Origin: Flavobacteriales bacterium
Lineage (GTDB): Bacteria; Bacteroidota; Bacteroidia; Flavobacteriales; BACL11
Direction: 5' to 3'
DNA length: 44,415 nt
NCBI GenBank assembly: GCA_002712715.1
Contig: PAUF01000010.1
Location: 46,424-90,838, forward strand
This document shows, piece by piece, positions 5,356 through 43,628 of this stretch (the stretch's first letter is position 1; each line of letters starts with the position of its first letter). Under the pieces are notes generated by a model. That model was given only the letters and a program-made list of their open reading frames with translations, did not search any database and had not been told where the DNA came from. Both the position numbers and the translations under genes were made by a program.

Positions 5356-8300
5356 TTATTCTAACAATATAAAACCGCTTTTATTATGAAATTCTCCTAA
5401 TTTATCTTCGATAGTTATTTTATAAGTATACGTACCCGAAATAACCTCGCCTCCATCCCATCCAATATTAATGTCATTACTTCTAAAAACCTCATCTCCC
5501 CATCTATTATAAATAACAATTTCATATTGATCTATTCCTTTTCCAATTGGTTTAAAAATGTCATTAACACCATCATTATTAGGAGTAAAAGTATTAGGAA
5601 CAAATAATGTATAATAAGGGTTTACAATAACATTAATAACAGCTGTATCAATACATGAAGCATTTTGTGCAACCATAGTTACAATATATGAACCCTCTTC
5701 TTGATATTGATGAGTAGGTTCAAAATCATATGAAAGACTAGAATTATCACCAAAATCCCATAAATATGATAATGCAAAAATAGAGGAATTGGTAAAAAAC
5801 ACTTCAGGATCTAACATATTAATAAATGAGGGGGAAAAAGAAATATTAGCTTTAGGAGAATTAACTATTTCTAATTGTGCCGAACCAGATCCTACATTAG
5901 CACATCCATTATCATCTGAAACATAAGGAATAGTATATAGTCCACTCTGATCAGTATAAATAACCAGAGGACTAGTGATTGTTGAAATTTGAGTTACAGC
6001 TCCATCTATTGAATATGTTAAATTCCATTCAGGGTTACCACTTAAGTCTACTACAATAGCAGCTGAATCTCCAGAACAAAGATCACCTCCCCCTGATATT
6101 ATATCCGCAGTCGGTAAAGGTATAACACTAACAACTACTTCACTAGTATCAACACAGTTAAGTATATCAGTTCCTATGACGTAATAAACCCGCGTAGATG
6201 TTGTATTAGAAACAACCGAAGAACCTACAGAAGAACTTAAATCTGTATCGGGAAACCATTGATAGTTTGAAGCTCCATCCGCTAATAAAGTTATACTTTC
6301 ACCCTCACATATAACCGGATTACTAGGATTAATAGATACAATTGGTGAAACACCGACTATTAATTCAAATTCTAAGGAATCTGAACAATTATTTAAATCA
6401 GTTCCAAGAACAGTATATGTGGTTGAACTTAAAGGAGAAGCTTGAACTATACTAGAATTGATGTTATCTAGACCATTTGCAGGTGACCAAGTATAGCTAT
6501 TAGCTCCAAAAACTTCAATTGATAATGATGAACCATAACAAATTGCAGAACTCGAAGGTAAATTGAATGACAAATTTGGAGACGGATTAACTATTACATT
6601 AGAACTAATTACAGCAGAACATCCATTTTGATCTGTTCCTATTATATAATAATTAGTAGATGAATTTGGACTAGCAATTACACTACTATCATTAGTAACA
6701 TTTAATCCTAATGCAGGAGACCATATATAATTATTTGCTCCTGATACTATTAAATTATCTGTTTCACCTTCACAAATAGTAGATACAGGTTTATTAACAG
6801 AAAGGACTGGTAATTGATTAACCAAAATCGTAATTGTATCCCAAGAAGAACATGAATTTATATCAGTTCCAGTAACTAAATAAGTTGTACTAACATTAGG
6901 ACTAGCAGAAACTACATTTCCAATATTGGAACTTAATGAAATATTAGGCTGCCAACTATATTGAACTCCTCCATTCGCTGAAAGTAAAGCGGATTCTCCA
7001 ATACAAATCGACTGTTTATCAGCATTTACTTCAATGTTTGGTGTGGTATTAACATTTACAGATATTGAAGAACTAGAACTACATCCTAAATTATCTATTC
7101 CCAAAACACTATAAATAGTACTAGAAATTGGTGAAACTTTTATTGTATCTAAGTTAGTAAGTCCAATTATCTGATTAGGACTCCATATATATGTATCCGC
7201 TCCAGATACATATAAAGTAACAGTATCACCTAAACATAAATCTATATTATTGGGGAAAGTTGAAAGGACAGGAATAGGATTAACACTTACAGTTGTAGAC
7301 ATTGTATCAGAACAACCATTATTAGCAGTTCCAATTACTGAATAAAATGTAGAAAATGATGGGTTAGCTAGCACTGTTGAACCAATTGTGTTGTTTAATC
7401 CTGTTGAAGGGTACCACTGATAATTATTGGCCCCATTGACAGATAATGATACAGATTGACCCTCACAAATAGTAGGATTGTTAGTCAAATTTAATGTTGG
7501 TTTATTCAGTACATCAATATCAATATAAATCGTATCAGAACATCCATAATTATCTGTACCTATAATCATATAATTAGTACTGCTATCTGGAAATGCAATA
7601 AAGGAAGATGAATTTATCGAGTTTATCGCATAGTTAGGAAACCAATTATAAGTTGTCGCTCCAGTCAAAATTATTGTTACTTCTTCATCTTCACAAATTG
7701 TAGGATTTATAGGGGTTGAAGACATCGATAGAGATTGAACTACAGAAACTGATACAGTATCATTACTTGAACAACCATTTATATCTGTACCAGTAACAAT
7801 ATAATCTATAGAAGTATTAGGAGTAGAGATGACATTAGAAGAATTAGTAGAACTAAGCCAAATACTTGGACTCCAATTATAACTTAAAGCCCCACTCGCT
7901 GTTAAGTTGACAGAACCTCCAAAACAAACAGTTGTATTTGAAGATGAAATATTTACTGGAACAGCAGAAGGTTGATATACAGATTGTGAAGATGTATCTA
8001 TACAACTATTAATATCAGAAACCGTCACTAAATAATTTCCAGCAGAAACATAAACTGCATTAGAAGAATTTTGAGGTGGAATAGTATTCCAATTATAACT
8101 ATATGGTGGATTTCCTCCTGAAACTTGTACATTTAATTGTCCATCGCTATATCCATAACAACTATTAGAAATCTGAGAAGTTGATAGTACTAACTGAGAA
8201 GGTTCATCTACAAAAATAGTATCAGTAATAATACAATTAGTATTATCAATTACTTGAATAATATAATTACCTGAAGATAAATTATCTATGGAATCAACTA

Positions 8301-9492
8301 TTGAATTAGTATTATTGACTATAGAAATCGGTATCATAGAAGATGAATACCAATTATATGTATAAGGTGGATAACCTCCATATATACTTAAATTAATTTC
8401 TCCATCATTACCACTATAACAACTAACATCAGTTATTATAGAGTTAGAAGAAAATGATGATGATGGATCCTCTGTAACAACTAATGTAAATGTACCTAAT
8501 TCTGATGCTGTTGCTGCATCAACTACTATATAATATGTACCTGATTCACATAACGCTGAAACAAGTTCAGATTGATTAGAACAATAATTATCATTTTCTG
8601 CAACAGCTACTACATTAGTATCTTTTAACAAATATAAATAACTATCAAACTGTGCTCCATTTGTCCCACAAAGAGAAATATTAACACCAGTTGGATTAGA
8701 TATATTAAACTTATAAATAACATCATTACCACTACTGTTTGGATAGTAATTACTATAACACTCATTACTATTAAAATGTATAAGTGGGTTTCCGGAATTT
8801 AAATTACCTAAATTTATAGCATTTGTAAAAGAATGACCATTTGTATACTTCCAATAAGTTTCAATATGTGGCTTAAAGTAACCATTAACACTGGCATCAC
8901 TACAAGATCCATTTAAATATCCATGACTATACCATTGACATGGAGGCCCATTTCTATAGTTTAAACCCTGATAAAAAGGATTACCTTCACATCTATAATC
9001 ATCACCTGTTTCTATTCCGACACATAAGCCCCACAAGTAAACTCCACAACATTCTACTCCATTCCAATCACAAACAGATCCATTCGAACAAAAACCAGCT
9101 AATCCATCAGAAGGCAGATCATCCTCCCATGTATCTAGTCTAAAATCTAAATATTGAGGAACAGTTATTGAATTATAAACAAAAGAAGCAAAAATATTAT
9201 TGAAGTCAATTGAATTTGTACCTGTATTAGTAGGCGTAAAGTTATTATCCTGCAAACAAGATCCTCCTGTCCATGGATATATAGATAAATTATCCATAGC
9301 CCAAATTTTGACCACTAATTCATCAGGAGCAAAACCCACTCCTAATAAAGATTCATCAGTAGCTGCAAAATTTCCTTGTACCTCTCTAAGTTTTACATCA
9401 ACCGAAATAGGGCCATCATTATATGACTGAGAAAAAATTAATAAACTATTAAATGAAAATAGTAACAAGAATAGAAATATTTTTAATCTCAT
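5356..9492 (-). CDS. T9SS type B sorting domain protein: Cys-rich N-terminal domain, PPC-like domain, 2 SprB repeats, tandem Ig-like repeats, PKD, CTD
   Basis: 1378 aa; signal peptide; SprB repeats (VSCYSGNDGEINLSIYGGYPPYTYNW); eight (I/L/F)C-G-(Y/N)xWxP repeats; C-terminus LFVPNTFTPNNDGVNDIFKPIGKGIDQYEIVIYNRWGDEVFRS...GWDGG...SGTYTYKI. Confidence 0.93.
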   Translation of the reverse strand: MRLKIFLFLLLFSFNSLLIFSQSYNDGPISVDVKLREVQGNFAATDESLLGVGFAPDELVVKIWAMDNLSIYPWTGGSCLQDNNFTPTNTGTNSIDFNNIFASFVYNSITVPQYLDFRLDTWEDDLPSDGLAGFCSNGSVCDWNGVECCGVYLWGLCVGIETGDDYRCEGNPFYQGLNYRNGPPCQWYSHGYLNGSCSDASVNGYFKPHIETYWKYTNGHSFTNAINLGNLNSGNPLIHFNSNECYSNYYPNSSGNDVIYKFNISNPTGVNISLCGTNGAQFDSYLYLLKDTNVVAVAENDNYCSNQSELVSALCESGTYYIVVDAATASELGTFTLVVTEDPSSSFSSNSIITDVSCYSGNDGEINLSIYGGYPPYTYNWYSSSMIPISIVNNTNSIVDSIDNLSSGNYIIQVIDNTNCIITDTIFVDEPSQLVLSTSQISNSCYGYSDGQLNVQVSGGNPPYSYNWNTIPPQNSSNAVYVSAGNYLVTVSDINSCIDTSSQSVYQPSAVPVNISSSNTTVCFGGSVNLTASGALSYNWSPSIWLSSTNSSNVISTPNTSIDYIVTGTDINGCSSNDTVSVSVVQSLSMSSTPINPTICEDEEVTIILTGATTYNWFPNYAINSINSSSFIAFPDSSTNYMIIGTDNYGCSDTIYIDIDVLNKPTLNLTNNPTICEGQSVSLSVNGANNYQWYPSTGLNNTIGSTVLANPSFSTFYSVIGTANNGCSDTMSTTVSVNPIPVLSTFPNNIDLCLGDTVTLYVSGADTYIWSPNQIIGLTNLDTIKVSPISSTIYSVLGIDNLGCSSSSSISVNVNTTPNIEVNADKQSICIGESALLSANGGVQYSWQPNISLSSNIGNVVSASPNVSTTYLVTGTDINSCSSWDTITILVNQLPVLSVNKPVSTICEGETDNLIVSGANNYIWSPALGLNVTNDSSVIASPNSSTNYYIIGTDQNGCSAVISSNVIVNPSPNLSFNLPSSSAICYGSSLSIEVFGANSYTWSPANGLDNINSSIVQASPLSSTTYTVLGTDLNNCSDSLEFELIVGVSPIVSINPSNPVICEGESITLLADGASNYQWFPDTDLSSSVGSSVVSNTTSTRVYYVIGTDILNCVDTSEVVVSVIPLPTADIISGGGDLCSGDSAAIVVDLSGNPEWNLTYSIDGAVTQISTITSPLVIYTDQSGLYTIPYVSDDNGCANVGSGSAQLEIVNSPKANISFSPSFINMLDPEVFFTNSSIFALSYLWDFGDNSSLSYDFEPTHQYQEEGSYIVTMVAQNASCIDTAVINVIVNPYYTLFVPNTFTPNNDGVNDIFKPIGKGIDQYEIVIYNRWGDEVFRSNDINIGWDGGEVISGTYTYKITIEDKLGEFHNKSGFILLE
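6125..7965 (-). repeat. Tandem array of about eight ~77-aa Ig-like repeats within the 1378-aa protein
   Basis: Repeated pattern xxICEGxSxxLxxxGAxxYxWxPxxGLxxxxxSxVxAxPxxSTxYxVxGTDxNGCSxxxxxxVxV. Confidence 0.85.
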
Positions 9493-9525
9493 TTTAATAA
9501 AAAATAAAATACAAATATAAATATT

Positions 9526-12500
9526 CTATCGTAACAATTTCAACTGACCTTGATATTCAAAAGTTTCACCATAAATATTCTCCACAAAAACTGTATAAGT
9601 ATATATTCCATGTGGACAAAGTGTACCATTTAGTCTATGAGTACCATCCCAACCTTGAGCGATATTTTTTGATTCGAATAATAACTCACCCCATCTAGAA
9701 AATATCTTCATTTCAAAAGAATTAATTCCAATTCCATAGGATTTGAAAATATTATTCTCTTTGTTATTACTAGATGGTATAAAAGAATTAGGTATATAAA
9801 TACTATATTCATCAACTACAACATTCTTAGTAATAGTATCGATACAATTATGCTCAGTAATTATTTCCAAAGTAACAGTATATTCACCATGTTCAGAGTA
9901 AGAATGAGAGACAATTGAATCAGTAGCTGTATTTAAGTCTCCAAAATCCCAATTCCAGAATTTTATATTTGACCAATATGTTGTTGAAATATCCACAAAA
10001 AAGAAAGGATCACTCTTTTGATCAATAAATCTTTGATGATATGGATACGCTTCAAAATCAGCAATTGGACTTAATAAATTATCAATATTAAATGATGATT
10101 TTTTAGAGCATCCATTATTATCAATAACATCTACTAGATAAGAACCTTGATTTAATGAATTTTCAACCAAGGATATTGAACCATTACTCCAATTTGGAAA
10201 ATATGGACTTACACCTCCACTTATAAACACTTCAGCTTTACCAACTCCTCTATTACATGTGTCTGGAAAATATTCAAGATCAAAATCAAGTTCTTCAGGT
10301 TGATATAAAGTTATTGAATCTATAGCAATACATTGATTATTATCATAAACTATCACTTCATAATATCCAGCATAAATATTTGATAAACTTTGAGATAACT
10401 CCATATTATTCCACAAAAAGGTGTATGGAGAAACACCACCAAAAGGAACCGCTTGTACTCCAGCGTCATTATAACCATTACAACTCACATTATATCCATT
10501 AAAATCAGTAACGGAAACTATATCAGTCTCTACTTTAGTCAACGGCTCATTTAAATAAATTGTTAGAAACTCAAAACAACCTAAAGAATCAGTAACAGTC
10601 ACAGTATAACTACCAACTGAAAGGTTATATACACTGTCACTAATACTGCCAAAATCCCATAAAAACTGATGTGGAGAATAACCTCCATCAACATTAATCT
10701 TAATCCACCCAGAATTATCTCCAATACACCTAATATTATATCCCGAATAATTAGAAGTTTTGACGGACATAACTTGAGATAAAGAAAGTGGTTCATCAAT
10801 CAAAAATTGAGAATTTTGAACACAGTTATTATTATCTGAAACTGTAACTAAATAAATTCCAGCCTCCAGTCCATAAATATCTTCTAATGAAGAAGTAAAT
10901 CCATTAGGACCTATCCATGAATAAGAGTACGGAGGAGCACCTGTTCCTTGAGTTATCTGTAATTCAATTTGACCAGTAAACTCTCCATTACAATTAACAT
11001 CGGTAATATTAGCGATAATTTGCATTGAATCATTTTGGACAATCAAAATTGAATCTGTCAATTTACATAAATTATCATCAATCACAGAGTATGTATGATA
11101 ACCAGCATTCAAAGCTAAAGAGTCACTAATTCCAAAATCAAACACATAAGGATAGACGCCTCCATTTATTTGAAATGATACAGTACCATTACTATCACCG
11201 TAACATAAAATATTTGTAACATTAGTAGTAACCACTAATTCAGAAGGTTGATTCACTATAATATCTCTATTTATAGAGCAATTAGTCGCGTCAGTTATAC
11301 TTATAGTGTATACTGCAGAACCAATAGATAAAAGATCTTGGGTAGTAACATTATTAGACCATAGATAATTAAATGGAGGGGTTCCTCCATTTATCTCTAA
11401 ATCAATAGAACCATCAATTCCATTAAAGCAACTTACATCCATAACATTAACAATAGTATCAAATAAATAAAGAAACACATCTAAAGTGTCTGAAAATATA
11501 CAATTATTCGCATCTAAAACATTATAAACATATTGACCTGCAGATAAATTATCATTAATCGAATCTATGGATCCATTACTCCATACATAAGAGTAAGTTT
11601 GAACTCCACCTGTAGCAGTAACTACTATAGATCCATCGGAATACCCTTCACAACTCTCATCAACAACTATAGAAGAAACAGAAATATTAGATGGTTCATT
11701 TATACTATACAACAATTGAATAGGACAATTAGAGGAATCATTTACTAAAACACTGTAATTACCAGGTGTCAAACTATCAATATAGTTACTAACCGAAGAA
11801 AAACCCAACGGACCGCTCCAATTAAAAAATGCACTATTTGAATTTGGAGTTAATAACAATATAGTACCATCAGCAAATCCATTACATGTAACATCTTGAA
11901 TGAAATTATTAACTTGAATATATGAACCATTACTGACGAATTCTGAAATTTGATTAGAACATCCGTTTTGATCTAATATAGTTAAATTATATGTTCCGGG
12001 TTCTAAATTAAAAATGTCTAAAGAATTAGAAGTATAAAAGTTTGGACCTACCCATGAATAAGAGTATGTTCCAGGAGTTGAAATTGTAACATCTATAGAT
12101 CCATCTTGTAAATTTAAACAACTTTCATTAACAACTATTGATGAAGTAACAACCTCTTGAGGTTGATTTATAATTAAAGGAGAATTGTTAATTGAGGGTA
12201 TACATCCATTATCATCAGAAATAGTATAATTATAATTACCAGCAGATAAGGAAAAAATATCCTCTGAAACACTAAAATAAGAATTAGTTCCATTCCAAAT
12301 TGTGGAATAACCTCCAACTCCACCAGAAATTGTTAGATGTATTTCACCATCAGATAATGAAAAACAGCTTACATCAATAATACTATCTACAACTGTAATA
12401 TCAGAAGGTTCTATAATTATAAAAGATAATGAAGGACCAATACAACCATTTGTGTCGAAAATACTAACTATATAATTACCTGGAGATAAATTATTAATAT

Positions 12501-14670
12501 CTTCTGAATTTGAAAAGAAAGCATTAGGGCCACTCCAATTATAATTAACTCCTGTACCAATAGAAGTCAAATCAATAGAACCATCATTATAACCAAAACA
12601 AGAAACATGATTTTCAATACCAAAGAGTGACATTGGAGATGGTTCAGTAATAGAAATTGTTTCAATTAAAGGACCACAATTGTTCGCATCAGATATTATA
12701 GCTGTATAAACACCAGCAGGAAGACTTGAAATATTCTGCAAATTACTAATATACCCATTTGAAGAAGACCAAGCAACGTTGTATGGGGGCACCCCACCAT
12801 TAATAACTAAATTAATTTGGCCATCATTTGATGAATAACAACTAACCTCCGTGTAATTAGATGTAACACTTAAAATAGGTGGCTCATCTATTATTACATC
12901 AATGGGTTCCAACCCACATCCAAGTGTATCACCAATACTATCAGTAATAAAACAATAATAATGTCCTTGATCTAAATTAGACAAATCCTCAAGACTGGAA
13001 GTAAATCCACTAACTGAATCTAACCAATAATAACTATAGGGTGGATAACCCCCAATCACAGAAAGATCAATAGTACCATCCTGCAATCCAAAACAACTAA
13101 CATCACTTTTAATATAAGAACCCGAAGAATAATTTAAATTAATCTGATAAGCATAACTAAAAGTACTCATTAAGGGACAAGCATCATCAATAACGGTAAC
13201 TACAAAATAATATGGACTATTTGCAACATCTAATAAACTAGGATTCCATGAAAAAACACCAACTGGATTAGGAGTTGAATTATTTGAAACGCTGAATGAG
13301 GCAGAAGGAATCGCATTATTCCAACTCATATTTAAATTTGTAACCGTAGAATTTGTCAAAGCTCCAATATTAAAATTGATAGTAGTGTTTCCATCGGTAC
13401 ATAGATTATAAGTAGAAATAGTTCCAGTAGGATCTGAATCTACAGAAGCTAAGGTATCAATACCTGTTAAATATGGAGGAGGTTCTGTACAATTAAGTAC
13501 ATTAACTTGTATGTCTCGAATAATGCTTCCTATGAGGACTCCATTTCTATATTCTTCAACTTTAATAGCTACAACAGAAGTGAGCGGAGATGGTGGGTTC
13601 ATACACAAATTCCCTGTAAGATAATTAAAAGTAGTCGTTCCTCCTACTGGATTATTTACTGAATAACCATTATTATACACTACAGAACCTCCTCCTGTTA
13701 AGGGAGTAATTAAGGAATAAACCAAGGAGTCACCATCAGGTTCAACAGCGCCATTATTATAACAATATGGAGTATTTGCACAAATGTATGGTACAGGATT
13801 TTGAGTAAAACTAGGCGAATTATTACATAATGTTAAATTATTTAAAGTAGCTTCAATTCTCAACTCCTCAGTTCCAGGAGCATTAATAGTACTTATCGCA
13901 TTATTTCTACAACATTCTTGAACAGAAAAAATCCAATCAGGACACTTAGCAATATTAATATTAGCTTCGTAAGTATATTCCTCGATACCAATAACATTTC
14001 CACCAGTACATGTAGAATTCATAGTTGGACATATAGGCGTAATAACAGTTCCTGATCCAGTTTGTGTAAGAGTAATACTCTGATTAACACCACAACTAGC
14101 AGAATAATAATTAAGATTTAGAGATCCAGGAGCTGAAATACCATCACAATCTCTATAAAATTTGACTGTAACTTTATAAGTATCAGGAGTACCTCCGATA
14201 TAAGTAGTCTGATATATATTTGCGCAAGGATCTGCAATAGTAAAAGAAGAAGATCCACTAGAACCAGTAGTAGGAGCACCACTAGTAATAAAACTACCAT
14301 TAACATCCGATAATGAGTAACTTCCTCCATTCCAACCATCACCCCATGAATCGAACCAATTAAATGTATAATTTCCTGGAGGGAGACAGTATATAGATTG
14401 ATAGGAAGAATTATTAGAATAAGCAGAACCCTGCCCACCTTGTGCAACTACAACACCTGCACTATTAGTAATGGTCCATGAAATTTCATTTGCCCAGGTA
14501 ACGGTCTGAATGTCAACTACAACACTACCATATCCGATAAGCGTAGTAGTTGGCGTACCTACTGTTCCAGAACTAATACATTGATAAGAAATGTCCATTC
14601 CAGCAGCATGAGTAGAATAACCATGATAGCTAATTAATGAAAATAATAATATTATTAGTATTCTTGTCAT
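9526..14670 (-). CDS. T9SS type B sorting domain protein: HAAG...YRDC N-terminal domain, ~13 SprB repeats, PKD, CTD
   Basis: 1714 aa; THAAGMDISYQC...YKVTVKFYRDCDGI...CCRNNAI; many VSCxGxxDGxIxLxxxGGxPPYxxxW units; C-terminus IYIPNSFIPSS...FEMKIFSRWGELLFES...GWDGT. Confidence 0.93.
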   Translation of the reverse strand: MTRILIILLFSLISYHGYSTHAAGMDISYQCISSGTVGTPTTTLIGYGSVVVDIQTVTWANEISWTITNSAGVVVAQGGQGSAYSNNSSYQSIYCLPPGNYTFNWFDSWGDGWNGGSYSLSDVNGSFITSGAPTTGSSGSSSFTIADPCANIYQTTYIGGTPDTYKVTVKFYRDCDGISAPGSLNLNYYSASCGVNQSITLTQTGSGTVITPICPTMNSTCTGGNVIGIEEYTYEANINIAKCPDWIFSVQECCRNNAISTINAPGTEELRIEATLNNLTLCNNSPSFTQNPVPYICANTPYCYNNGAVEPDGDSLVYSLITPLTGGGSVVYNNGYSVNNPVGGTTTFNYLTGNLCMNPPSPLTSVVAIKVEEYRNGVLIGSIIRDIQVNVLNCTEPPPYLTGIDTLASVDSDPTGTISTYNLCTDGNTTINFNIGALTNSTVTNLNMSWNNAIPSASFSVSNNSTPNPVGVFSWNPSLLDVANSPYYFVVTVIDDACPLMSTFSYAYQINLNYSSGSYIKSDVSCFGLQDGTIDLSVIGGYPPYSYYWLDSVSGFTSSLEDLSNLDQGHYYCFITDSIGDTLGCGLEPIDVIIDEPPILSVTSNYTEVSCYSSNDGQINLVINGGVPPYNVAWSSSNGYISNLQNISSLPAGVYTAIISDANNCGPLIETISITEPSPMSLFGIENHVSCFGYNDGSIDLTSIGTGVNYNWSGPNAFFSNSEDINNLSPGNYIVSIFDTNGCIGPSLSFIIIEPSDITVVDSIIDVSCFSLSDGEIHLTISGGVGGYSTIWNGTNSYFSVSEDIFSLSAGNYNYTISDDNGCIPSINNSPLIINQPQEVVTSSIVVNESCLNLQDGSIDVTISTPGTYSYSWVGPNFYTSNSLDIFNLEPGTYNLTILDQNGCSNQISEFVSNGSYIQVNNFIQDVTCNGFADGTILLLTPNSNSAFFNWSGPLGFSSVSNYIDSLTPGNYSVLVNDSSNCPIQLLYSINEPSNISVSSIVVDESCEGYSDGSIVVTATGGVQTYSYVWSNGSIDSINDNLSAGQYVYNVLDANNCIFSDTLDVFLYLFDTIVNVMDVSCFNGIDGSIDLEINGGTPPFNYLWSNNVTTQDLLSIGSAVYTISITDATNCSINRDIIVNQPSELVVTTNVTNILCYGDSNGTVSFQINGGVYPYVFDFGISDSLALNAGYHTYSVIDDNLCKLTDSILIVQNDSMQIIANITDVNCNGEFTGQIELQITQGTGAPPYSYSWIGPNGFTSSLEDIYGLEAGIYLVTVSDNNNCVQNSQFLIDEPLSLSQVMSVKTSNYSGYNIRCIGDNSGWIKINVDGGYSPHQFLWDFGSISDSVYNLSVGSYTVTVTDSLGCFEFLTIYLNEPLTKVETDIVSVTDFNGYNVSCNGYNDAGVQAVPFGGVSPYTFLWNNMELSQSLSNIYAGYYEVIVYDNNQCIAIDSITLYQPEELDFDLEYFPDTCNRGVGKAEVFISGGVSPYFPNWSNGSISLVENSLNQGSYLVDVIDNNGCSKKSSFNIDNLLSPIADFEAYPYHQRFIDQKSDPFFFVDISTTYWSNIKFWNWDFGDLNTATDSIVSHSYSEHGEYTVTLEIITEHNCIDTITKNVVVDEYSIYIPNSFIPSSNNKENNIFKSYGIGINSFEMKIFSRWGELLFESKNIAQGWDGTHRLNGTLCPHGIYTYTVFVENIYGETFEYQGQLKLLR
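10070..13125 (-). repeat. Array of about 13 SprB-type repeats within the 1714-aa protein
   Basis: Thirteen units beginning with a (V/E/I/D)xC element (VSCFGLQDGTIDLSVIGGYPPYSYYW through DTCNRGVGKAEVFISGGVSPYFPNW). Confidence 0.85.
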
Positions 14671-14711
14671 AAATCCTTACTAAATTATTGCAAAATTACA
14701 AAAAAAGATTC

Positions 14712-16307
14712 TCATTTTATTTTCCTTACTCTAAGTAGATTCAAATGGTTCTGAGAATTTGTTCTAATATCAATTAATTGGTGATTATAGAACCTTACAA
14801 TTTGATCATAATACAATGGAACTACTATAGATTTATCAATTATAATTCTTTCCATTTTCAAATACAATAACTCTCTTTTTTTTGGATCTTTCTCAATAAT
14901 AGAAGTCTCGTATAAATCATCAAATTCATCATTGCTAAAATGGGTTTTATTTAATCCATTATTCCAATTATTTCTACTATAGAATAATGATAAATAATTC
15001 TCAGGATCTGGATAATCAGCTATCCAACTTGCTCGAAAAAAATCAATCTTTGATTTAGCGACCATATCTCTATGTGTTGATGAAGGATTAACCTCAATAT
15101 TTACATTAAGACCTATTGAATTTAATTGATTTTGAATATATTCACAAAGATCCAAATAATTATCCGTAGTATTAATAGTTATTGGAGGGATTTCATAACC
15201 CATTGAATCAGATTTATATAAATAATACTTTGCTTTTTCGATATCATATTTATATCCATTTAACTTACTATTATTAGAATACATTGAAATAGGAACAATT
15301 CCATTATTAGCAGGTGTACCTATATTATTACGTAAATACTTAATCATTTGTTCTCTATTAATAGCATAATTAATAGCCTTTCTTAAATAAATATTTTTCT
15401 TAAATGGGGAATCCCCATCCATTAAGAATCCAAAATATTCAGTATTTAAAAAATTTATTGACTCAAAATTTATTTGATTCCGATACTTAGACTTAAGTTC
15501 TCCATTCAAATCTAGTAATTCATCCTTATATGAAGCATCAAGTCCTGAAATGAAATCCAAATCTCCTTGTAAAAAGCTAAGGAATTCGGATTGTTTATCC
15601 TTAATAAAAGTAATCGCAACAGCATCTAAATAAGGTAACCTATTATCATTATCGAATTCGAAATAATGAGGATTTTTTCTCAAAACAAGTTTTGATCCAT
15701 ATTTCCAATATTGATACATAAAAGGACCTGTTCCTATTGGAGATTCTCCAAAAGAAGAAACGTCAGCAAGTTCTTTAGGCACAACACTACAATACTGCAT
15801 CCCTAAAATAGATAAAAATGGTGAAAATGGTTTATGCAGTATAATTTTAAACACAGAATCATTTTCTGCATAAAAAGTATCAACATTATCTAATACCCAT
15901 GAACCAGGAGAAGCGAGTTGGGGATCCAATAAACGGTTAAAAGAGTAAACAAAATCTGAAGCAACAACCCTTCGTCCTTGATCTTCAAAAAAAACTGGAT
16001 GATTATGAAAATAAACATCAGTTCTTAAATTAAAAGTATATTCTTTTCCATCAGAGCTAATTAACCAGTCGCTAGCTATTAATGGAGAAATGTTTAGACT
16101 ATCATCAATTCTAACTAAAGAACTGAAAATCTGAGACGTTGCCCAAATAGTAGATTTATCTTTTGCAAAAGCTGGGTCTAGTGTTGATATCCCATCCGAC
16201 TCATTATAATGTAAAATATCATAATTGTCAGTATCAGGCACACTACATTGAATAAACAAAAATATCAACGAAAGCTTATAAATAAATTTCATGTCCATTA
16301 AAATCAA
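14712..16307 (-). CDS. ABC transporter substrate-binding lipoprotein, oligopeptide/dipeptide (SBP family 5) type
   Basis: 531 aa; lipobox LFIQC; GISTLDPAFAKD, YTFNLRTDVYFHNHPVF, GTGPFMYQYW, SWIADYPDPENYLSLFYS. Start may really be at the internal MKFIYK (about 16292). Confidence 0.88.
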   Translation of the reverse strand: MILMDMKFIYKLSLIFLFIQCSVPDTDNYDILHYNESDGISTLDPAFAKDKSTIWATSQIFSSLVRIDDSLNISPLIASDWLISSDGKEYTFNLRTDVYFHNHPVFFEDQGRRVVASDFVYSFNRLLDPQLASPGSWVLDNVDTFYAENDSVFKIILHKPFSPFLSILGMQYCSVVPKELADVSSFGESPIGTGPFMYQYWKYGSKLVLRKNPHYFEFDNDNRLPYLDAVAITFIKDKQSEFLSFLQGDLDFISGLDASYKDELLDLNGELKSKYRNQINFESINFLNTEYFGFLMDGDSPFKKNIYLRKAINYAINREQMIKYLRNNIGTPANNGIVPISMYSNNSKLNGYKYDIEKAKYYLYKSDSMGYEIPPITINTTDNYLDLCEYIQNQLNSIGLNVNIEVNPSSTHRDMVAKSKIDFFRASWIADYPDPENYLSLFYSRNNWNNGLNKTHFSNDEFDDLYETSIIEKDPKKRELLYLKMERIIIDKSIVVPLYYDQIVRFYNHQLIDIRTNSQNHLNLLRVRKIK

Positions 16308-16328
16308 GCTAATTTAACAATATAAAAA

Positions 16329-19300
16329 TTATCTCATTACATTAACCTCACCTTTATACACAAACAATTTATTCCTTAAGTCTGTAATAGAAACTGTATA
16401 ATAATATGTGCCATTGAGAACATCATTACCTTTGGAGGAACCATTCCATGGCAAATCTATATTGTCAGAGTAAAAAACAACTTCTCCCCACCTATTATAT
16501 ACATGCATTTCATAGGAAGAATATTCATTTATACTCACTGTAAAATAATCATTAATATTATCTTCATTTGGAGTGAATGAGTTAGGAATATAAACTATCA
16601 ATTCTGGTGAAACTTCTAAATCATAATTGAACTCATCACTGCACCCATTAATATCCTCAACATATAATGTAATACTATAAACATCAGGATAATTAAATTC
16701 AATCAGCAAGGAGTCATCACTTGAAATAAATTGATCATCTAAAAACCACTTAGATACAATAGAATTACTACTATTATTGACCAAAGAAACTTTTGGATCA
16801 AACATTGAGACATTTGAATTCGAAATTAAAAATTCCGCTTCTGGATTTACTTCAATTTGAATAATATCAAATTTAGAAATTGAACTTACACAAGAATTAG
16901 AAGTTTCTGCACTTAAAGACACAGAATATATACCTGGGTTATCATAAATATTACTAACTTGATCTCCTTCCTTTTCTAAGTCAGAACTAAAGTCCCAGTT
17001 ATAATCAATCTCTGCATAATTCTTACAAATTGCAGAAAAATCTACCTCTTCATTTAGACAAACTTTATCATCCCATAAGAAATCAATTATAGGTAAAGGA
17101 AAAATCTCTACTTGTTTCTCTATAGAAGCAAAACATGAATTTAAAGTAATAACAGACAAAGACACATTGTAAATTCCCGATTCCTTATATAAATGTGATG
17201 TATTTGGGAAATTAGTTACAACGCCATCTCCAAAGTCCCAAGTATAAGAAAAGACTTCCGAATTAGAAATTAAAGATCTATCCTGAAATCTAATAATATC
17301 TCCAATACATTGAAACTCATAAATAAAATCTAAATCAGGAACTGGATTTATTAAAACTGAATCTGTAAATTTACTTTTACAACCAAAATTTGATTCAACC
17401 TTTAGGTTTACTTCGAAGAAACCTTCTGATAGATAAATATGATAGGGACTGTCAATATCAGAGATAATTGTATTGTCCCCAAAGTCCCAATTCCAACTTG
17501 TAACATAACCATTTTCTAAATCAATTATTGGAGTAAAAACCATAGAATCACCAACACATACTTCATTTGCAGAAAATTTCACTTTAGGCAAATCATAAAT
17601 CAAAACTTCTTTAGTAATACTATTAGAACATCCATCATCAGAATAAGATACCAAGGTTGTATTAAAAAACCCTGATTCTGAGAACACATTGTTAGAGTTA
17701 AATTCGAAAGAAGAACTAAAATGATCTCCAAAGCTCCAAATATTTGCTACTACATTCGAAGATGACAGATTATTAAAATATGTCGTATCGCCAAAACAAG
17801 CTTCAGAATAAGAAAAATCTACATGAGGCAAATCATCAACAATTAATGTATCAACTAAATTAACCGAACAAAAATTCTCTAAATTAACAACTGCTATTTG
17901 AACTATAAAAGAACCCGCACTATCAAAAATGTAATGTACTATTGAATCACTAAAACTATTACCTGAAATGTTCCATTCATACAAAAAAGAACCACTAATT
18001 CCAGCATCAGCATATAAAACCATTGTATCATTATAACAATGATTTTCATATATCATACTTGGATTTGGGACATTTTGATGGACATGTACGTATACCGAAT
18101 CCCTAGAAAAACATTCGCCGTCTGTATTACTTACAAAAAACATGCTGGAAAAGGTAGGTCTAACATACACATTCTGAAGCGATGGATTAGAAATGAAAAT
18201 ACTTGTGTCCCAAAGAAAATTATTTCCATAACCATTTGCAGATAAAATAATCTCATCTCCAAGACAAACTGTATCATTAATACCTGCGTCTAAGTCGAGT
18301 AACTTTACTTTAATAGAATCATCATAATGTATTACAAATTGACAACCATAATCATTCTCAATGATTAATTTTGGGACAAAATAATCATCATATGAATATA
18401 TATGAAAAGGGTTACTATCAGTAGAAAAAATACCATCACCAAAATCCCAAAAATAAAAACTAGTGTTAAGCACGTTAGAATTAAAATACAAAGTATCATC
18501 AGCACATATTTGAGTCTCAGAAATAGTGAAATCACCAATTGGACCATTAATTTGAATCAAATCGTAATAAATCATGGTATCTCTACATCCATTCTGATCT
18601 TCAACAATTAATGAAACATCATAAATTCCTGAAGTAGAATATACATGAGATGGATTTTCCTGTGTTGAATAAATACCATCTCCAAAATCCCAATAAAATA
18701 TACTCAAATTACTGCTAGAATTATTCGTAAATGAAGAAATCAACGGAGGACATGAAGAGGTGAAATTAGAAGAAGTAAAATTAGCTGTAGGTTTTTTTAC
18801 TAATATTACTGAATTACTATCAACAGAAATACAATTCATAGAATCTTTAACAATTAACTTTACTGTATAAGAGCCTTCATTCGAATAAATATGGCTTGGG
18901 TTCTTTAATAACGAATAACTTCCATCACCAAATGACCATTCATAACTTAAATTATAACCAATAGAAGAATCAATAAAACTTACTAGTTGATCTGGACAAA
19001 TAATAACATCACTTATTTCAAAATTAATTTCAGGATATGAGAATTTGAAATCTACAGATTTCTCTAATGTATCCTTACAACCATCAGCAGAAACTGCATA
19101 AAGAATAATATTATATTGTCCTTCATCAAGATAAATATTATGAGGATTATTTTGATAAGAAAAATTATTATTTCCCAAATCCCAAAACAAATCAGCAGGC
19201 TCGGAACAAAGATCAGTAAAATTTACTATTAGTGAATCGCAACCTTCTGTATCAACTACTGCAAAATCAGCTTCAATATCTGACACCCTAAACATATTAC

Positions 19301-21644
19301 TAATTACAAGAGTATCTTTGCATCCATTAAAATCAGTCATCATTAATGTGACATCATATGTTCCAGGCAAAGAGTACAAATGATCTTGACGATTAAATCC
19401 AATATATCCATCTCCCCAATCTACTTTATAGTTTCGACAATCTTGTGATAAATTATCTATATAGGATCTTTTGGATCCAACACAAATTACTGAATCTTTT
19501 TCAGAATTATTTGCATTAATAAGATATGTAAAATTAGCCTCGGGCACTGAAACAATTAATTCATATTCATATTCATGAATACAAGCGGTAAGATTATTCT
19601 TAACTCGTAATAAAACATCATAGGTCCCGCGATTCAAATAAGTATGTACGGGATTAATGTCATTTGATGTAGAACCATCACCAAAATTCCATAAAACTGA
19701 GTCAGCTCCTAAGGAAAAATTTTGAAATTCAAAAGTATAAGGATCTAAACAATTTGTCTCAGTTTCAAAATAAGCACTAGGTTCAATAACTTGTATAAGT
19801 TGATTTTTAACTAAAGTATCAATACAAGAACCAATTCCACTAATCAATGATACTGTATATAATCCTACTTCATTATATTCATGATATGTATCTTGATTAT
19901 TGTCACTATTTCCATCACCAAAATTCCATTCCCAAAAAGTTAAACTATCGATTGAAACTGTCGCATCATCAAAACTAATTACTTCACCAGCACACACTAA
20001 TGTATCGCTAGCAATAAAATCTACATTTGAAATATCAATAACTCTTATTAATGAAGGATAGTCAATCTGTCTAATACATCCAATAGAATTTTCAACTCTT
20101 AAAGAAATATTATAAATTGAAGGAAGTACATACTGATGATTAGGACTATGTATAGATGAATAATTACCATCTCCAAAAGACCATGAATAAGATACCATTG
20201 GAAATAAAGAATTACTATTATCTGAAAATTGAACAGATTGATTTATACATACAATTGAATCTGAAAAATGAAAATCTACTACTAAATCATCAACTATAAC
20301 ATAATCTACATATGTTGAATCATTTGTACAACCATTAGAATCTACTAACAATAAAGAAACGTCATATTTACCATACTCTGCAAATTCAATTGCGGGGTTA
20401 AATAATGCAGAAGTATCACCATTACTAAATATCCACATCAATGATTGAACATTTGGAGTAGAATTATAGAAATTTACTTCGAAAGGCACAATACAACTAG
20501 AGGAGGAGTCAGTGTCAAAATCTACAAAGGGATCCGGAAAAATATGTATATAATCAATATATTCTATACTGGAAAGACATTCTCCATTAATAGATGTTGT
20601 TAAGGAAACAGAATATGTTCCAGAATTAACATAATTATGAGAAGGGTTTTTCAAATTTGAAAAAGTCCCATCTCCAAAATCCCAGTTCCAACTATCAATG
20701 ACAGAATGTGTCAAATCAATAAAATTCAACTCTACATTCTTACAATTTGAATCAGCGTCTACAGAAAACTCTGTAAGCACATTCGCTCCGACTTCAATAT
20801 AGTTACTTACTTCAAAAGAATCTAAACAAATACCATTATTGGCAATTAAAACGACATCAAAAACACCAGCAGTATACAAATGAACAGGTTCGTTATCAAA
20901 AGAAAAGTTCCCATCTCCAAAAATCCAAGTAAAATCATTAGCGTTTGAAGAATTATTAATAAAATTAATTGACTGTACTGAATCACAAGAAATTTTAATA
21001 TCCGAAGAAAAATCAGCTGCAGGTATTTGTTTTACTTCTATTAAATTGGTCGCTACCAAAATATTCTCACAACCATTATCATCCCTTACTAATAAAGAAA
21101 CATTATAGATGCCATCATTTGGATAATAATATATTGGGTTCTGCAAATTACTACTTCCACCATCACCAAAATCCCAAATCCAATCAACAATATTAGCAAA
21201 ACTATTAGATTGGTCTGTAAATACAACTTTATCATATTGACAAATTATATTTATACTCTCCGAGAAATCAGAGTTAGGCAAATCATGAATAATAATATAA
21301 TCTGTAATTATATAACTGTCACTATGGTTATTATCGCTTACTGTCAACTTCACAGTAAATATACCTGGATTGGTATACATTATTATTGGATTTGGAAGAT
21401 TAGAAGTCATTCCATTCCCAAAATCCCAATTCCATGTATCTGGATTACCTGTAGAAAGATCTTCAAATTCAACAATTAAAGATCCACATCCTACATTTGA
21501 ATTCAAAGCAGTAAAGTTAGCCGTAACTTGTGAGGTTGCACTGAAAACAGATAACATGGAAAAGAGAATTAGGTTAATAAGAAAATTACCAGGTAAAATA
21601 AAAAGAAATTCTTTCCTTAGAAACTTGTAATAATTAATTAACAT
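16329..21644 (-). CDS. Giant tandem-PKD-repeat protein with T9SS type B sorting domain
   Basis: 1771 aa; about 17-19 PKD-like units (WNWDFGDGTFSNLKNPSHNYVNSGTYSVSL); C-terminus VYIPNSFTPNEDNINDYFTVSI...YEMHVYNRWGEVVFYSDN...LNGTYYYTV. Confidence 0.93.
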   Translation of the reverse strand: MLINYYKFLRKEFLFILPGNFLINLILFSMLSVFSATSQVTANFTALNSNVGCGSLIVEFEDLSTGNPDTWNWDFGNGMTSNLPNPIIMYTNPGIFTVKLTVSDNNHSDSYIITDYIIIHDLPNSDFSESINIICQYDKVVFTDQSNSFANIVDWIWDFGDGGSSNLQNPIYYYPNDGIYNVSLLVRDDNGCENILVATNLIEVKQIPAADFSSDIKISCDSVQSINFINNSSNANDFTWIFGDGNFSFDNEPVHLYTAGVFDVVLIANNGICLDSFEVSNYIEVGANVLTEFSVDADSNCKNVELNFIDLTHSVIDSWNWDFGDGTFSNLKNPSHNYVNSGTYSVSLTTSINGECLSSIEYIDYIHIFPDPFVDFDTDSSSSCIVPFEVNFYNSTPNVQSLMWIFSNGDTSALFNPAIEFAEYGKYDVSLLLVDSNGCTNDSTYVDYVIVDDLVVDFHFSDSIVCINQSVQFSDNSNSLFPMVSYSWSFGDGNYSSIHSPNHQYVLPSIYNISLRVENSIGCIRQIDYPSLIRVIDISNVDFIASDTLVCAGEVISFDDATVSIDSLTFWEWNFGDGNSDNNQDTYHEYNEVGLYTVSLISGIGSCIDTLVKNQLIQVIEPSAYFETETNCLDPYTFEFQNFSLGADSVLWNFGDGSTSNDINPVHTYLNRGTYDVLLRVKNNLTACIHEYEYELIVSVPEANFTYLINANNSEKDSVICVGSKRSYIDNLSQDCRNYKVDWGDGYIGFNRQDHLYSLPGTYDVTLMMTDFNGCKDTLVISNMFRVSDIEADFAVVDTEGCDSLIVNFTDLCSEPADLFWDLGNNNFSYQNNPHNIYLDEGQYNIILYAVSADGCKDTLEKSVDFKFSYPEINFEISDVIICPDQLVSFIDSSIGYNLSYEWSFGDGSYSLLKNPSHIYSNEGSYTVKLIVKDSMNCISVDSNSVILVKKPTANFTSSNFTSSCPPLISSFTNNSSSNLSIFYWDFGDGIYSTQENPSHVYSTSGIYDVSLIVEDQNGCRDTMIYYDLIQINGPIGDFTISETQICADDTLYFNSNVLNTSFYFWDFGDGIFSTDSNPFHIYSYDDYFVPKLIIENDYGCQFVIHYDDSIKVKLLDLDAGINDTVCLGDEIILSANGYGNNFLWDTSIFISNPSLQNVYVRPTFSSMFFVSNTDGECFSRDSVYVHVHQNVPNPSMIYENHCYNDTMVLYADAGISGSFLYEWNISGNSFSDSIVHYIFDSAGSFIVQIAVVNLENFCSVNLVDTLIVDDLPHVDFSYSEACFGDTTYFNNLSSSNVVANIWSFGDHFSSSFEFNSNNVFSESGFFNTTLVSYSDDGCSNSITKEVLIYDLPKVKFSANEVCVGDSMVFTPIIDLENGYVTSWNWDFGDNTIISDIDSPYHIYLSEGFFEVNLKVESNFGCKSKFTDSVLINPVPDLDFIYEFQCIGDIIRFQDRSLISNSEVFSYTWDFGDGVVTNFPNTSHLYKESGIYNVSLSVITLNSCFASIEKQVEIFPLPIIDFLWDDKVCLNEEVDFSAICKNYAEIDYNWDFSSDLEKEGDQVSNIYDNPGIYSVSLSAETSNSCVSSISKFDIIQIEVNPEAEFLISNSNVSMFDPKVSLVNNSSNSIVSKWFLDDQFISSDDSLLIEFNYPDVYSITLYVEDINGCSDEFNYDLEVSPELIVYIPNSFTPNEDNINDYFTVSINEYSSYEMHVYNRWGEVVFYSDNIDLPWNGSSKGNDVLNGTYYYTVSITDLRNKLFVYKGEVNVMR
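16620..21535 (-). repeat. Tandem PKD repeat array within the 1771-aa protein
   Basis: Recurring W(D/I/S)FGDGxxSxxxNPxHxYxxxGxYxVxL motif roughly every 80-90 aa. Confidence 0.88.
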
Positions 21645-36312: not shown

Positions 36313-36328
36313 ATTATTAAATTGACTG

Positions 36329-36357
36329 CAAAAATACTAATTTAAATGAAAGACAAA
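36329..36357 (-). promoter_or_regulatory. Candidate Bacteroidota-type promoter upstream of guaB
   Basis: On the minus strand: TTTG (36357-36354), 17-nt spacer, TATTTTTG (36336-36329), 16 nt before the guaB ATG. Confidence 0.55.
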
Positions 36358-36379
36358 AAAGAAACGAAATTTTATGCGA

Positions 36380-39300
36380 TTATCTTATCAATGAAACCAC
36401 TCCTGTTTTCTGTATTATTTGTCCAACTCCATCAATATACTCAATATGATATACATAATCCCCATTTTGTACAGGTAATCGTTCATATGTACCATCCCAG
36501 CCTTTATTAGGATCAGATGTTAAAAATATTAGTTGACCATTTCTAGTATAAATAGAAAATGTATATCCCAATTCCGAAACAAAAGATGTAATAGGCTTAA
36601 ACAACTCATTGTGCTCATCATCATTAGGGGTAAATGTATTTGGGACAAACAATTTTGGTGTCTGGGATACACAAGAAATATTCGATAAAGATCTTTCAAA
36701 AAATCCGTATTGATTTCCATTACCCTCTACCGCTTCAATATAGTAACAAAACCTTCCATTACCATCAACAAAATCACTAACTAAGTCTACAAAATTTAAG
36801 CTATCACCTGGATAAAAGGTATGTATAGGAATTAATACAAATGGTTCTCTATTTACAGATCGATATAAATTATAATAAGAAACCCCTCCTAACCATTTAT
36901 TATATGAATTAAATGAAAGTGTATTTGTATACCCATCAGGGTAAATAATAGCTCCATAGTCAGTATTAATTTCAGTTTCTAATAAAATACTTGTAGAAAT
37001 TGAAGTATCATTAAATCCGATCACAGAAGGCGTAGAAATTCTTTTATTACATGTATCAATTGGATATATATGATATTGATATGAATTTAATTGAGTTTCA
37101 ACGTTATTATCATAAAAATAAATCATATCACCATTATTAGGAAAAGGTATAGAAGCAATATTAATAAAATTGTTATTATTTAAAATACTTCTATCAATTT
37201 CAAAAGAGGAAATGATAGCAGAGTTATCTATATAGCATGAGATATCAATACCACCATCATCATGATTTACATTTGAAGTAGTTATATAATTAAAATCTGG
37301 TTTCTTGGGTAAATCAGCAAAAAAAGTGACTAAATCTGAATTTGCGACATAAGTAGAATCAAAATTATATGCTAAAATTGTAATTTCATAAGTGCATGAG
37401 TCAATAATATCCTCTAACAAGAATTCAGTCTGTGAACTATTTAATCTAATTGTATTCCTAGGATCAATACCACATGTAGTTTCTAAAATTTGAATGTTAT
37501 AATGATCTATACCACCATCCCAATTAATATAGTCATTCCAATCCATAAATATAGAATGATCACAAGCATCTAATGCTGCGATTAAATTAATTGAATTATG
37601 TTCTGCACTAGTAGCTGATGCATTACCACAACTATCAATAGCTCTAATCTGAAATAGTTCTGAATTATTTACGGCATTTGAAGATAAATCTACATAGTTA
37701 GTATTATTTAACCCAAAAACAGAGTCGATTGTAACCCATACTCCAAAATTATCCTGTTTATAGATAGCGTAGAAATCACTTCCAGCAGCTGGTTCCCAAC
37801 TAATTACTGATTTACCAGAATTATTTACAGAAACATCAGAAATAATTGGTTGATCAGGCTTTATTGTATCTAATAGATTAATATCAGCTATAGAAGATTT
37901 AGAAACACATCCACTAACATCTCCTATTTCAACATAAAATTCTGGATTATAATCACAATATTCAGCATCATGTATATAATTTAACAAAGGAGTTGTAAGT
38001 ATATTATTAAAACCTTCATTGTAATTCATTAAATAAAGATTATAATCTAAAAAAGATGTAGCTAAAAGTGGATTATGAATTGGATTCCAATTCAAATTCG
38101 CAGTAACTCCTTGATTTACTGGAGTAATATCCATATAAATACTTTGAAGAGTATCAGATTCTAATGTAGAAGACAAAACTCCACATGCTTCTTCAGTAGA
38201 TAAAAAATAAAACTGCGTAGATTGGTCCCCGTTAGCACCAATGTGTGTATATGTAGTTTCAGGAAAATAAACACTATCAATTAGAGTAAATGGCCCATTT
38301 ATATCATTAGAATGATAAACCATATAAGGTTCAGCTGTCGGTGGAGCTCCATCAACAAATTTCCATGTTAAAGTAATATCTCCATTATCTTCTACAGACA
38401 CACATCTCAAATCTGGTATAGGTGGTACCACTGTGATTTTTATAGTAGCAATACTAATTCCATTTGCAGGACAAAAATCGTCATATGCCTTAACTAAAAA
38501 TGTAAATACATTGGAAGTAACACTGCAACCCACATCAGCCTCCATGTGAGCACAATCAGTCTGCCATTCAAAAACACCTGAAACAATTCCAGGTGATGAA
38601 AATGGAGGTGTAATCCCAGCCCCATTATTAAATGTTGCACATGGTGGGTTTACACAGCTATTAACATTAATAAAATCAGTTGCAAATTGACCTCCGGAAA
38701 CATCTAAAGTAACATCTTGAAGAACTCCCCCATTGTAAGTATCTAAATCTTCAGCATCAATATTAAAACTAATCAAATCTCCTGCATAAACAGTAGTTTC
38801 ATAGGAAGGAAGTAAAGTCACAGGATCTGTAAAGGCCTCAGAGATAACAGGAGGGTCATTAAATCCATCTTGAGGTTGAGCATACAAGCCGCAATCTACA
38901 AGAACAACCTGAACCTCTCTAAAAACTTCTGCTACTAATTGACCACATTTATAAGCTTCAACTTTTATACACGTAACAAAAATTCCTGAAGTCAATGATG
39001 TATAAGTAATCTCACCAGTAGTAGCGTCTAATGTTGGGCTACCAGGTATGGGCTCAATGACTGAGTAGGGAGCAGAAAAAACTAAAGCTGTAGAGCTAGG
39101 ATTAGAAGCGGTATAATTAAGATTTTCACCTAATGGCTCTCCCCAAGAATAAGTAATTGCATCCAGTTCATCATCTGAAGCATTGTGAGAATATGAAAAT
39201 TCATATCCAGTACAAATAATAGTTTTAGCTAGTTCTTTAAATTCTGGTGAAGAATCAAAGCATGGATCTGCAGGGATAGCATTACCCGTGACAGGATCAG

Positions 39301-39793
39301 TATATGGATACATTACAGCTCTCAAAGTCCATGGGTCATCTGACATACCATTAGTAATACTACTGCTTCTACAACAGCTTCCCCATGTAAAATGCCAACC
39401 CTCAGAAGGTGGAGTTCCAGCCATCGTCGTAGGATCTGATCTCCAAACATATTCTTCAACGGCACCTAAGGTACCAGAAGCGCAATCAAAACATGTATTA
39501 CCTGATGCAGCGGTACCGGTTGGGGAAATATCAGTAATTGATATGAAATTTAACAATATGGGAGTTTGTGCTCCCAGTGCAGGATAATTATGAGCAGTTA
39601 AAGTTTGAGAAGTTTGAGAAAATGTAATACCATTACAATCTCGATAAACCTTCATTGTAAAAACATACTGACCAGTATTAGGACCAGCTTTCAAACATTC
39701 CCATGTTATTTCACCGCCCATGAAATGGGATGAATAAATATTAGATGAAAAATAAATGAAAAATAATAAAATATATAATGATATTTTTTTCAT
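36380..39793 (-). CDS. T9SS type B sorting domain protein: HFMGGE...YRDC N-terminal domain, fibronectin-like regions, CTD
   Basis: 1137 aa; SSHFMGGEITWECLKAG...MKVYRDCNGI...SCCRSSSI; C-terminus LFVPNTFTPNDDEHNELFKPI...FSIYTRNGQLIF...GWDGTYERLPVQNGDYVYHIEY. Confidence 0.92.
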   Translation of the reverse strand: MKKISLYILLFFIYFSSNIYSSHFMGGEITWECLKAGPNTGQYVFTMKVYRDCNGITFSQTSQTLTAHNYPALGAQTPILLNFISITDISPTGTAASGNTCFDCASGTLGAVEEYVWRSDPTTMAGTPPSEGWHFTWGSCCRSSSITNGMSDDPWTLRAVMYPYTDPVTGNAIPADPCFDSSPEFKELAKTIICTGYEFSYSHNASDDELDAITYSWGEPLGENLNYTASNPSSTALVFSAPYSVIEPIPGSPTLDATTGEITYTSLTSGIFVTCIKVEAYKCGQLVAEVFREVQVVLVDCGLYAQPQDGFNDPPVISEAFTDPVTLLPSYETTVYAGDLISFNIDAEDLDTYNGGVLQDVTLDVSGGQFATDFINVNSCVNPPCATFNNGAGITPPFSSPGIVSGVFEWQTDCAHMEADVGCSVTSNVFTFLVKAYDDFCPANGISIATIKITVVPPIPDLRCVSVEDNGDITLTWKFVDGAPPTAEPYMVYHSNDINGPFTLIDSVYFPETTYTHIGANGDQSTQFYFLSTEEACGVLSSTLESDTLQSIYMDITPVNQGVTANLNWNPIHNPLLATSFLDYNLYLMNYNEGFNNILTTPLLNYIHDAEYCDYNPEFYVEIGDVSGCVSKSSIADINLLDTIKPDQPIISDVSVNNSGKSVISWEPAAGSDFYAIYKQDNFGVWVTIDSVFGLNNTNYVDLSSNAVNNSELFQIRAIDSCGNASATSAEHNSINLIAALDACDHSIFMDWNDYINWDGGIDHYNIQILETTCGIDPRNTIRLNSSQTEFLLEDIIDSCTYEITILAYNFDSTYVANSDLVTFFADLPKKPDFNYITTSNVNHDDGGIDISCYIDNSAIISSFEIDRSILNNNNFINIASIPFPNNGDMIYFYDNNVETQLNSYQYHIYPIDTCNKRISTPSVIGFNDTSISTSILLETEINTDYGAIIYPDGYTNTLSFNSYNKWLGGVSYYNLYRSVNREPFVLIPIHTFYPGDSLNFVDLVSDFVDGNGRFCYYIEAVEGNGNQYGFFERSLSNISCVSQTPKLFVPNTFTPNDDEHNELFKPITSFVSELGYTFSIYTRNGQLIFLTSDPNKGWDGTYERLPVQNGDYVYHIEYIDGVGQIIQKTGVVSLIR

Positions 39794-39801
39794 AAAATCT
39801 A

Positions 39802-41253: not shown

Positions 41254-41328
41254 AATTTAAGTTCTTTAATTTACAAATATAATAATTCGTATCATAACTA
41301 TAATATATGATAAACTTATATTTTATAA

Positions 41329-42288: not shown

Positions 42289-42297
42289 TAAATATTT

Positions 42298-42305
42298 TAT
42301 ATTTG
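42298..42305 (+). promoter_or_regulatory. Candidate TAnnTTTG -7 element for glyA
   Basis: TATATTTG in the glyA/FabK-like divergent intergenic region. Confidence 0.35.
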
Positions 42306-42344
42306 CTATTAGTTATAATTTATTGCAATAATAAAAATTAAATC

Positions 42345-43619: not shown

Positions 43620-43628
43620 TGTTAGTAA

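Follow-up and report, generated by a model that had tools for sequence, protein, structure and literature searches.

A small domain nested in a hairpin of an SprB-like type IX secretion cargo protein, and evidence for its exchange between related genomes

The locus and its two type B proteins

The window analysed here is a stretch of 44,415 nt from a Flavobacteriales bacterium of family BACL11 (GCA_002712715.1, contig PAUF01000010.1, positions 46,424-90,838). Two of its genes are the subject of this work, those of P0001 (1714 residues) and P0002 (1137 residues), and their features are collected in Table 1. A first-pass annotation had described both products as type B cargo of the type IX secretion system (T9SS) that begin with the same Cys-rich domain, and the open reading frames and motifs that it quoted are all present where it had placed them. 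The class assignment holds throughout for P0002, which scores above the curated cut-offs of both CHU_C (39.9) and TIGR04131 (49.6). For P0001 it holds by Pfam, where the CHU_C sorting domain reaches 37.8 bits against a cut-off of 27, but not by NCBIfam, where TIGR04131 remains below the cut-off (28.6 against 35). With a sorting domain above a curated cut-off, P0001 is counted as type B T9SS cargo.

Table 1. Features of P0001 and P0002 (window coordinates, strand in brackets).
Feature	Position	Description
P0001, secreted, 1714 aa	9526..14670 (-)	Signal peptide, D1 with nested INS, D2, SprB repeats, PKD, type B T9SS sorting domain
P0001 N-terminal signal sequence, residues ~1-19	14614..14670 (-)	Hydrophobic stretch ending ..HGYS before THAAG; predicted by sequence reading
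P0001 D1, first part, THAAGMDISYQC strand, residues 20-37	14560..14613 (-)	BLASTP/alignment with P0002 and relatives; strand in AlphaFold2 model
P0001 extra block, residues ~38-160, linkers included	14191..14559 (-)	Deletion scan; alignment with insert-free relatives
P0001 INS domain, residues 48-147, all-beta, ~95-100 aa	14230..14529 (-)	Profile matches; AlphaFold2
P0001 INS signature FDSWGDGWNGG, residues 106-116	14323..14355 (-)	
P0001 D1, second part, residues 161-394	13489..14190 (-)	YRDC ... CCRN ... KVEEYRNG ... RDIQV..C
P0001 D2, second beta domain, residues 396-517	13120..13485 (-)	Uninterrupted in P0001
P0001 SprB repeat region	9991..13119 (-)	12 Pfam matches; probable stalk
P0001 PKD_4 domain, residues 1567-1617	9820..9972 (-)	
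P0001 CHU_C type B T9SS sorting domain, residues 1626-1699	9574..9795 (-)	
P0002, type B T9SS protein, 1137 aa	36380..39793 (-)	D1 uninterrupted
P0002 D1, residues ~21-301	38891..39733 (-)	Without insert

The SprB repeats of P0001 exceed the Pfam cut-off in 12 stretches (227 bits), which makes it SprB-like and a putative adhesin. Pfam finds no SprB repeats in P0002. RTX repeats have no Pfam match in P0001, which carries the T9SS sorting domain instead and is therefore not classed as an RTX adhesin. No PorP/SprF-like or gliding gene was seen among the window ORFs that were scanned. Three giant type B T9SS genes lie at 5356-21644 of the window, the last two of them separated by the gene of a family 5 solute-binding protein (14712-16307), and the order of these four genes is kept in genome G191. 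Finally, the 8.1-kb end of the window's contig (C10; window 36225-44319) is 98.99% identical to the end of contig C6, where the P0002 gene occurs again. This second copy is not a paralogue: the two contig ends dovetail, and the window's contig stops at base 90838.

The N-termini of the two proteins match by BLASTP over residues 150-437 of P0001 and 17-347 of P0002 (E=3e-20), and a separate collinear match joins their extreme ends (residues 4-35 and 6-37, E=8e-4); the P0001 residues left unmatched in between constitute the insert. A profile-profile comparison of the P0001 relatives with the P0002 relatives (hhalign) gives a probability of 99.6% and E=8.5e-24 for the part after the insert. Both comparisons bear out the claim that the proteins begin with a shared domain, here called D1. 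Its ~300 N-terminal residues outside the insert gave nothing above the curated cut-offs of Pfam or NCBIfam. The description as Cys-rich is loose, since among 23 D1 sequences only the YRDC cysteine and one other are invariant and the CCRN motif is often replaced by AARN. In P0002 the first cysteine is indeed followed by YRDC within about 20 residues (C33 to C53). It is important to point out that the D1 and INS profiles with which relatives were found were trained on some of the sequences then found; the pairwise BLASTP and the deletion scan described below are independent of them.

The insert in the D1 hairpin

When 124 residues after position 36 of P0001 are removed, the local score rises from 220 to 264, the highest value of all 124-residue cuts with start points 20-269, random cuts having a mean of 169. 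Because the BLASTP gap, hhalign and the maximum of the deletion scan all point to it, the extra block at about residues 37/38-160 can be considered real. The first-pass annotation had put a block of ~130 residues at 14190-14577, which is accurate to a few residues, and it was with residues 37-160 excised that the alignment scored best.

The insert-free relatives show what the block interrupts. Their D1 starts with (S/T)H.xG.(D/E)I.YxC, followed by a short turn (e.g. CLGGN) and then by Y.ITL.FYRDC; the turn (CLGGN-QY) takes just a few residues to lead from strand 1 (..DISYxC) into strand 2 (Y.ITLKFYRDC). The inserted domain, INS, occupies this turn in P0001, L016/L045, L017, L018/L087 and L036. 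It is found neither in D1 nor directly after it in L019 (G151), L020-L023, L025, L026, L028, L029, L031 and the outgroups L037-L044, and inspection of the late-starting D1 matches L230-L236 revealed no further insertions. The neighbouring genes of P0001 are conserved in G024, G191 and G151, and INS is present in the first two of these genomes and absent from G151. Presence and absence of INS thus occur at one locus within one genus. We had to discard the idea that all relatives are orthologues, as synteny puts only these three genomes' copies beside the neighbour genes of P0001.

The AlphaFold2 model of P0001 residues 20-517 has a mean pLDDT of 85.2 and a pTM of 0.69. It contains 12-residue D1 strands at 22-33 and 163-174, with a confident all-beta insert between them that is bounded at both ends by low-confidence linkers. 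From this model we infer that strands 1 and 2 of D1 probably pair across the insert. The nesting of one domain at a loop of another, as first suggested from the letters of the sequence, is thus supported by the deletion scan, by the insert-free relatives and by the predicted strands that flank the insert. P0001 also shares one trait of the RTX split-domain type, in that a loop of its beta host domain carries a small inserted domain.

The inserted domain and its occurrence

INS comprises ~95 residues with the pattern ..(W/Y)..E(I/V)SW.(I/L)....G..VASG......C(L/V)P.G.YTFNM(Y/F)DS(W/Y)GDGWNGG.Y.I. It is also predicted to fold by itself, the AlphaFold2 model of INS alone having eight strands, a pLDDT of 92.5 and a pTM of 0.86. 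No Pfam, NCBIfam or PHROGs family matched it above cut-off, a profile search of the PDB gave no relative, and the comparison with the PDB by fold gave no match at E<0.001 (best TM 0.47/0.52). The function of INS cannot be read from its fold, because there is neither a solved homologue nor a convincing fold match. A Foldseek search with the multi-domain model returned generic immunoglobulin-like chains only, at query TM 0.12-0.19.

Five matches with query TM 0.76-0.87 were obtained when the INS model (window 14221-14535) was compared with a library of predicted viral structures. Predicted structures of Virus NIOZ-UU157 proteins and of a Fadolivirus caspase contain a domain that matches the INS model at query TM 0.80-0.87. 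A tblastn search of viral contigs with the INS protein found no relative, and a literature search for 'GDGWNG' found nothing.

Within the family of the window's genome, 50 of the 52 genomes contain INS, with 1-22 matches each and 18 in the window's own genome; across the phylum it was found in 38 of 396 sampled genomes. Copies were also seen outside Bacteroidota, in two genomes of Candidatus Neomarinimicrobiota (L106 and L123). Most of the copies in the window's genome lie on contig C3, as modules within large proteins that have GCTD..DDGSC linkers. One of the open frames on this contig, of 2979 residues and running off the contig start (L013:3-8939), has ~12 INS matches, two MAM domains and many such linkers. 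Elsewhere, INS followed by GCTD..DDGSC linkers occurs in proteins that look like secreted metalloproteases (L159, L160, L164, L165 and L166), some of them with a HEIGHYLNLAHTWG motif.

INS is also nested at two further host sites, which brings the host loops to at least three. The second lies inside D2 of L024, L027, L030 and L032-L035, where D1 is intact and D2 resumes after INS. These hosts do not share the gene neighbourhood of P0001 and are therefore relatives rather than positional orthologues. The third is in a domain of L155-L157 that we would call CARDB-like, in a thioredoxin/Omp28-like protein; CARDB-like and Omp28-like are our own labels, given from reading the sequences and not from database matches. 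L180 (G216) has the same flanks as these three without INS, at 64% identity over the host. The 483-residue thioredoxin-like type A protein of the window has no BLASTP match to the host L155. INS is thus an independent module: outside D1 it stands singly or in tandem in secreted proteins, and it is nested in three host loops for which insert-free relatives exist. One further protein (L158:1153-5463) has an unrelated N-terminal part, but from INS onwards it continues with the D2 end and the SprB-like repeats seen in the L024 group, and looks like the product of a crossover at INS.

Exchange between relatives, and competing readings

We now turn to hosts that are close to each other. L024 and L027 share 92% of the residues and 93% of the DNA of D1, but only 58% and 68% of those of INS, and for L034 and L035 the corresponding values are 89% and 83% for D1 against 44% and 62% for INS. 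In windows of 60 columns, L024 and L027 agree in 91-100% of their DNA over the kilobase that precedes INS, except for two windows close to the start of the gene; the identity drops to 48-81% within INS and returns to 88-96% behind it. The first break lies within a few bases of the INS linker. In G191 and G151 the differing block is bigger: besides INS it takes in a few hundred bases at the start of D1, and the flanks on either side are similar.

These differences could mean little if INS were a structural spacer or a shielding module, nested without any ligand and diverging under loose constraint. This is the main rival to the target-binding role that we favour, and we consider it unlikely. 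It accounts for the tandem arrays of INS with Cys/Asp-rich linkers in giant proteins, which suit a structural repeat, and for the many D1 proteins that manage without INS. However, five residues (E62, D107, G110, D111 and W113, in P0001 numbering) do not vary among 47 INS copies, which suggests a site. The hosts L024 and L027 are near-identical, but the INS of L024 is closer to those found in other hosts than to the one in L027, which speaks of exchange and not of drift.

Another option is very rapid evolution of INS where it stands, driven perhaps by phages or grazers, with no exchange of cassettes. INS is indeed the most divergent part between otherwise similar hosts. However, the D1 tree pairs L024 with L027 and L034 with L035 (support 100/95 and 100/99), while approximately unbiased (AU) tests reject the INS of each pair as one clade (p=4.7e-6 and 2e-4); these pairs were chosen after the identity table had been seen. 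The tests likewise reject a single clade for all INS at the D1 site (p=3.8e-7) and for all INS at the D2 site (p=1.7e-66), and since INS is short, single branches of its trees should not be over-read. Subtypes are moreover common to different sites and hosts: L036, with INS at the D1 site, and L024, with INS at the D2 site, share 71% of the residues and 78% of the DNA of INS against 39% and 60% of D1. Evolution in place is accordingly improbable.

Errors of assembly or binning could also imitate exchange, as the genomes are draft assemblies, mostly metagenome-assembled, and some hosts lie close to contig ends. This explanation is very improbable, since G106 and G045 stay colinear for ~16 kb, in two blocks of 80-83% DNA identity that only the ~300-bp INS separates, since seven host genes from several genera show the same pattern, and since the open frames are intact. 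Finally, the reading of the insert and D1 as two sequential domains, with the N-terminal strand belonging to INS, deserves next to no credence: just ~17 D1 residues precede INS, but they correspond to the beginning of D1 in P0002 and in the insert-free relatives, as BLASTP, alignment and the deletion scan agree, INS occurs elsewhere without them, and the host resumes past INS at the D2 and CARDB sites too.

Judged from these sequence comparisons, recombination between related genomes has replaced one INS by another at a given site. The D1 tree does not distinguish a single filling of the D1 site followed by exchange from repeated filling. The account that we find probable is that P0001 is an SprB-like T9SS surface protein in which INS is nested in D1 as an exchangeable cassette and is most likely the target-binding part. 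P0001 would be exported by the type IX system and stay on the surface through its type B sorting domain, presenting D1 and INS at its far outer end. The first hairpin turn of D1 would carry the whole of INS as a second domain, and the same cassette would nest in the D2 loop and in the CARDB-like domain. By analogy with the RTX split domains, INS may bind a target outside the cell, projected from its host. E62, D107 and D111 may form a site for a metal or for the ligand, and the exchange of INS may change what is bound. One can speculate further, and here we are more tentative, that INS is a dedicated exchangeable cassette of T9SS tips that repeatedly enters loops of unrelated beta domains, such that recombination swaps the specificity while stalk and host are unchanged.

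An uncharacterised domain that sits at different loops and in different versions among close relatives makes it possible to study whole-domain insertion and exchange soon after they took place. Should INS bind glycans or particles, its exchange would be a fast route for marine Bacteroidota to alter adhesion, and INS itself would be a marker for finding binding tips in T9SS proteins.

Among known systems, P0001 resembles SprB of Flavobacterium johnsoniae, which is held at the surface through SprF (PMC9143113), in the two features that were compared, the SprB repeats and the type B sorting domain of a large T9SS surface protein. A closer parallel for the nesting is found in RTX adhesins such as AhLap, where the domains that bud from 'split domains' are the ligand-binding ones (PMC12077191): in both cases a giant, repetitive surface protein has, towards its distal end, a beta-sandwich host into which a small self-standing domain is inserted. 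RTX adhesins, however, use type I secretion and N-terminal retention, whereas P0001 has a C-terminal type B signal for the type IX system. D1 and INS also differ from the domains described for RTX adhesins, INS is exchanged between sites and relatives, and its binding is suggested by the analogy.

Nested ligand-binding domains as such are therefore already known. A limited literature search found no description of a nested domain in T9SS proteins that differs in site and version among close relatives, a search on adhesin cassettes in Bacteroidetes found nothing relevant, and we have not found a swappable nested domain described for T9SS proteins. Domain insertion is common, being present in 20% of multidomain proteins, and inserted domains are small, with a median of 115 residues (PMC13114784). 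That census concerns architectures in general, whereas in the present case close relatives differ in the presence, the site and the version of the insert.
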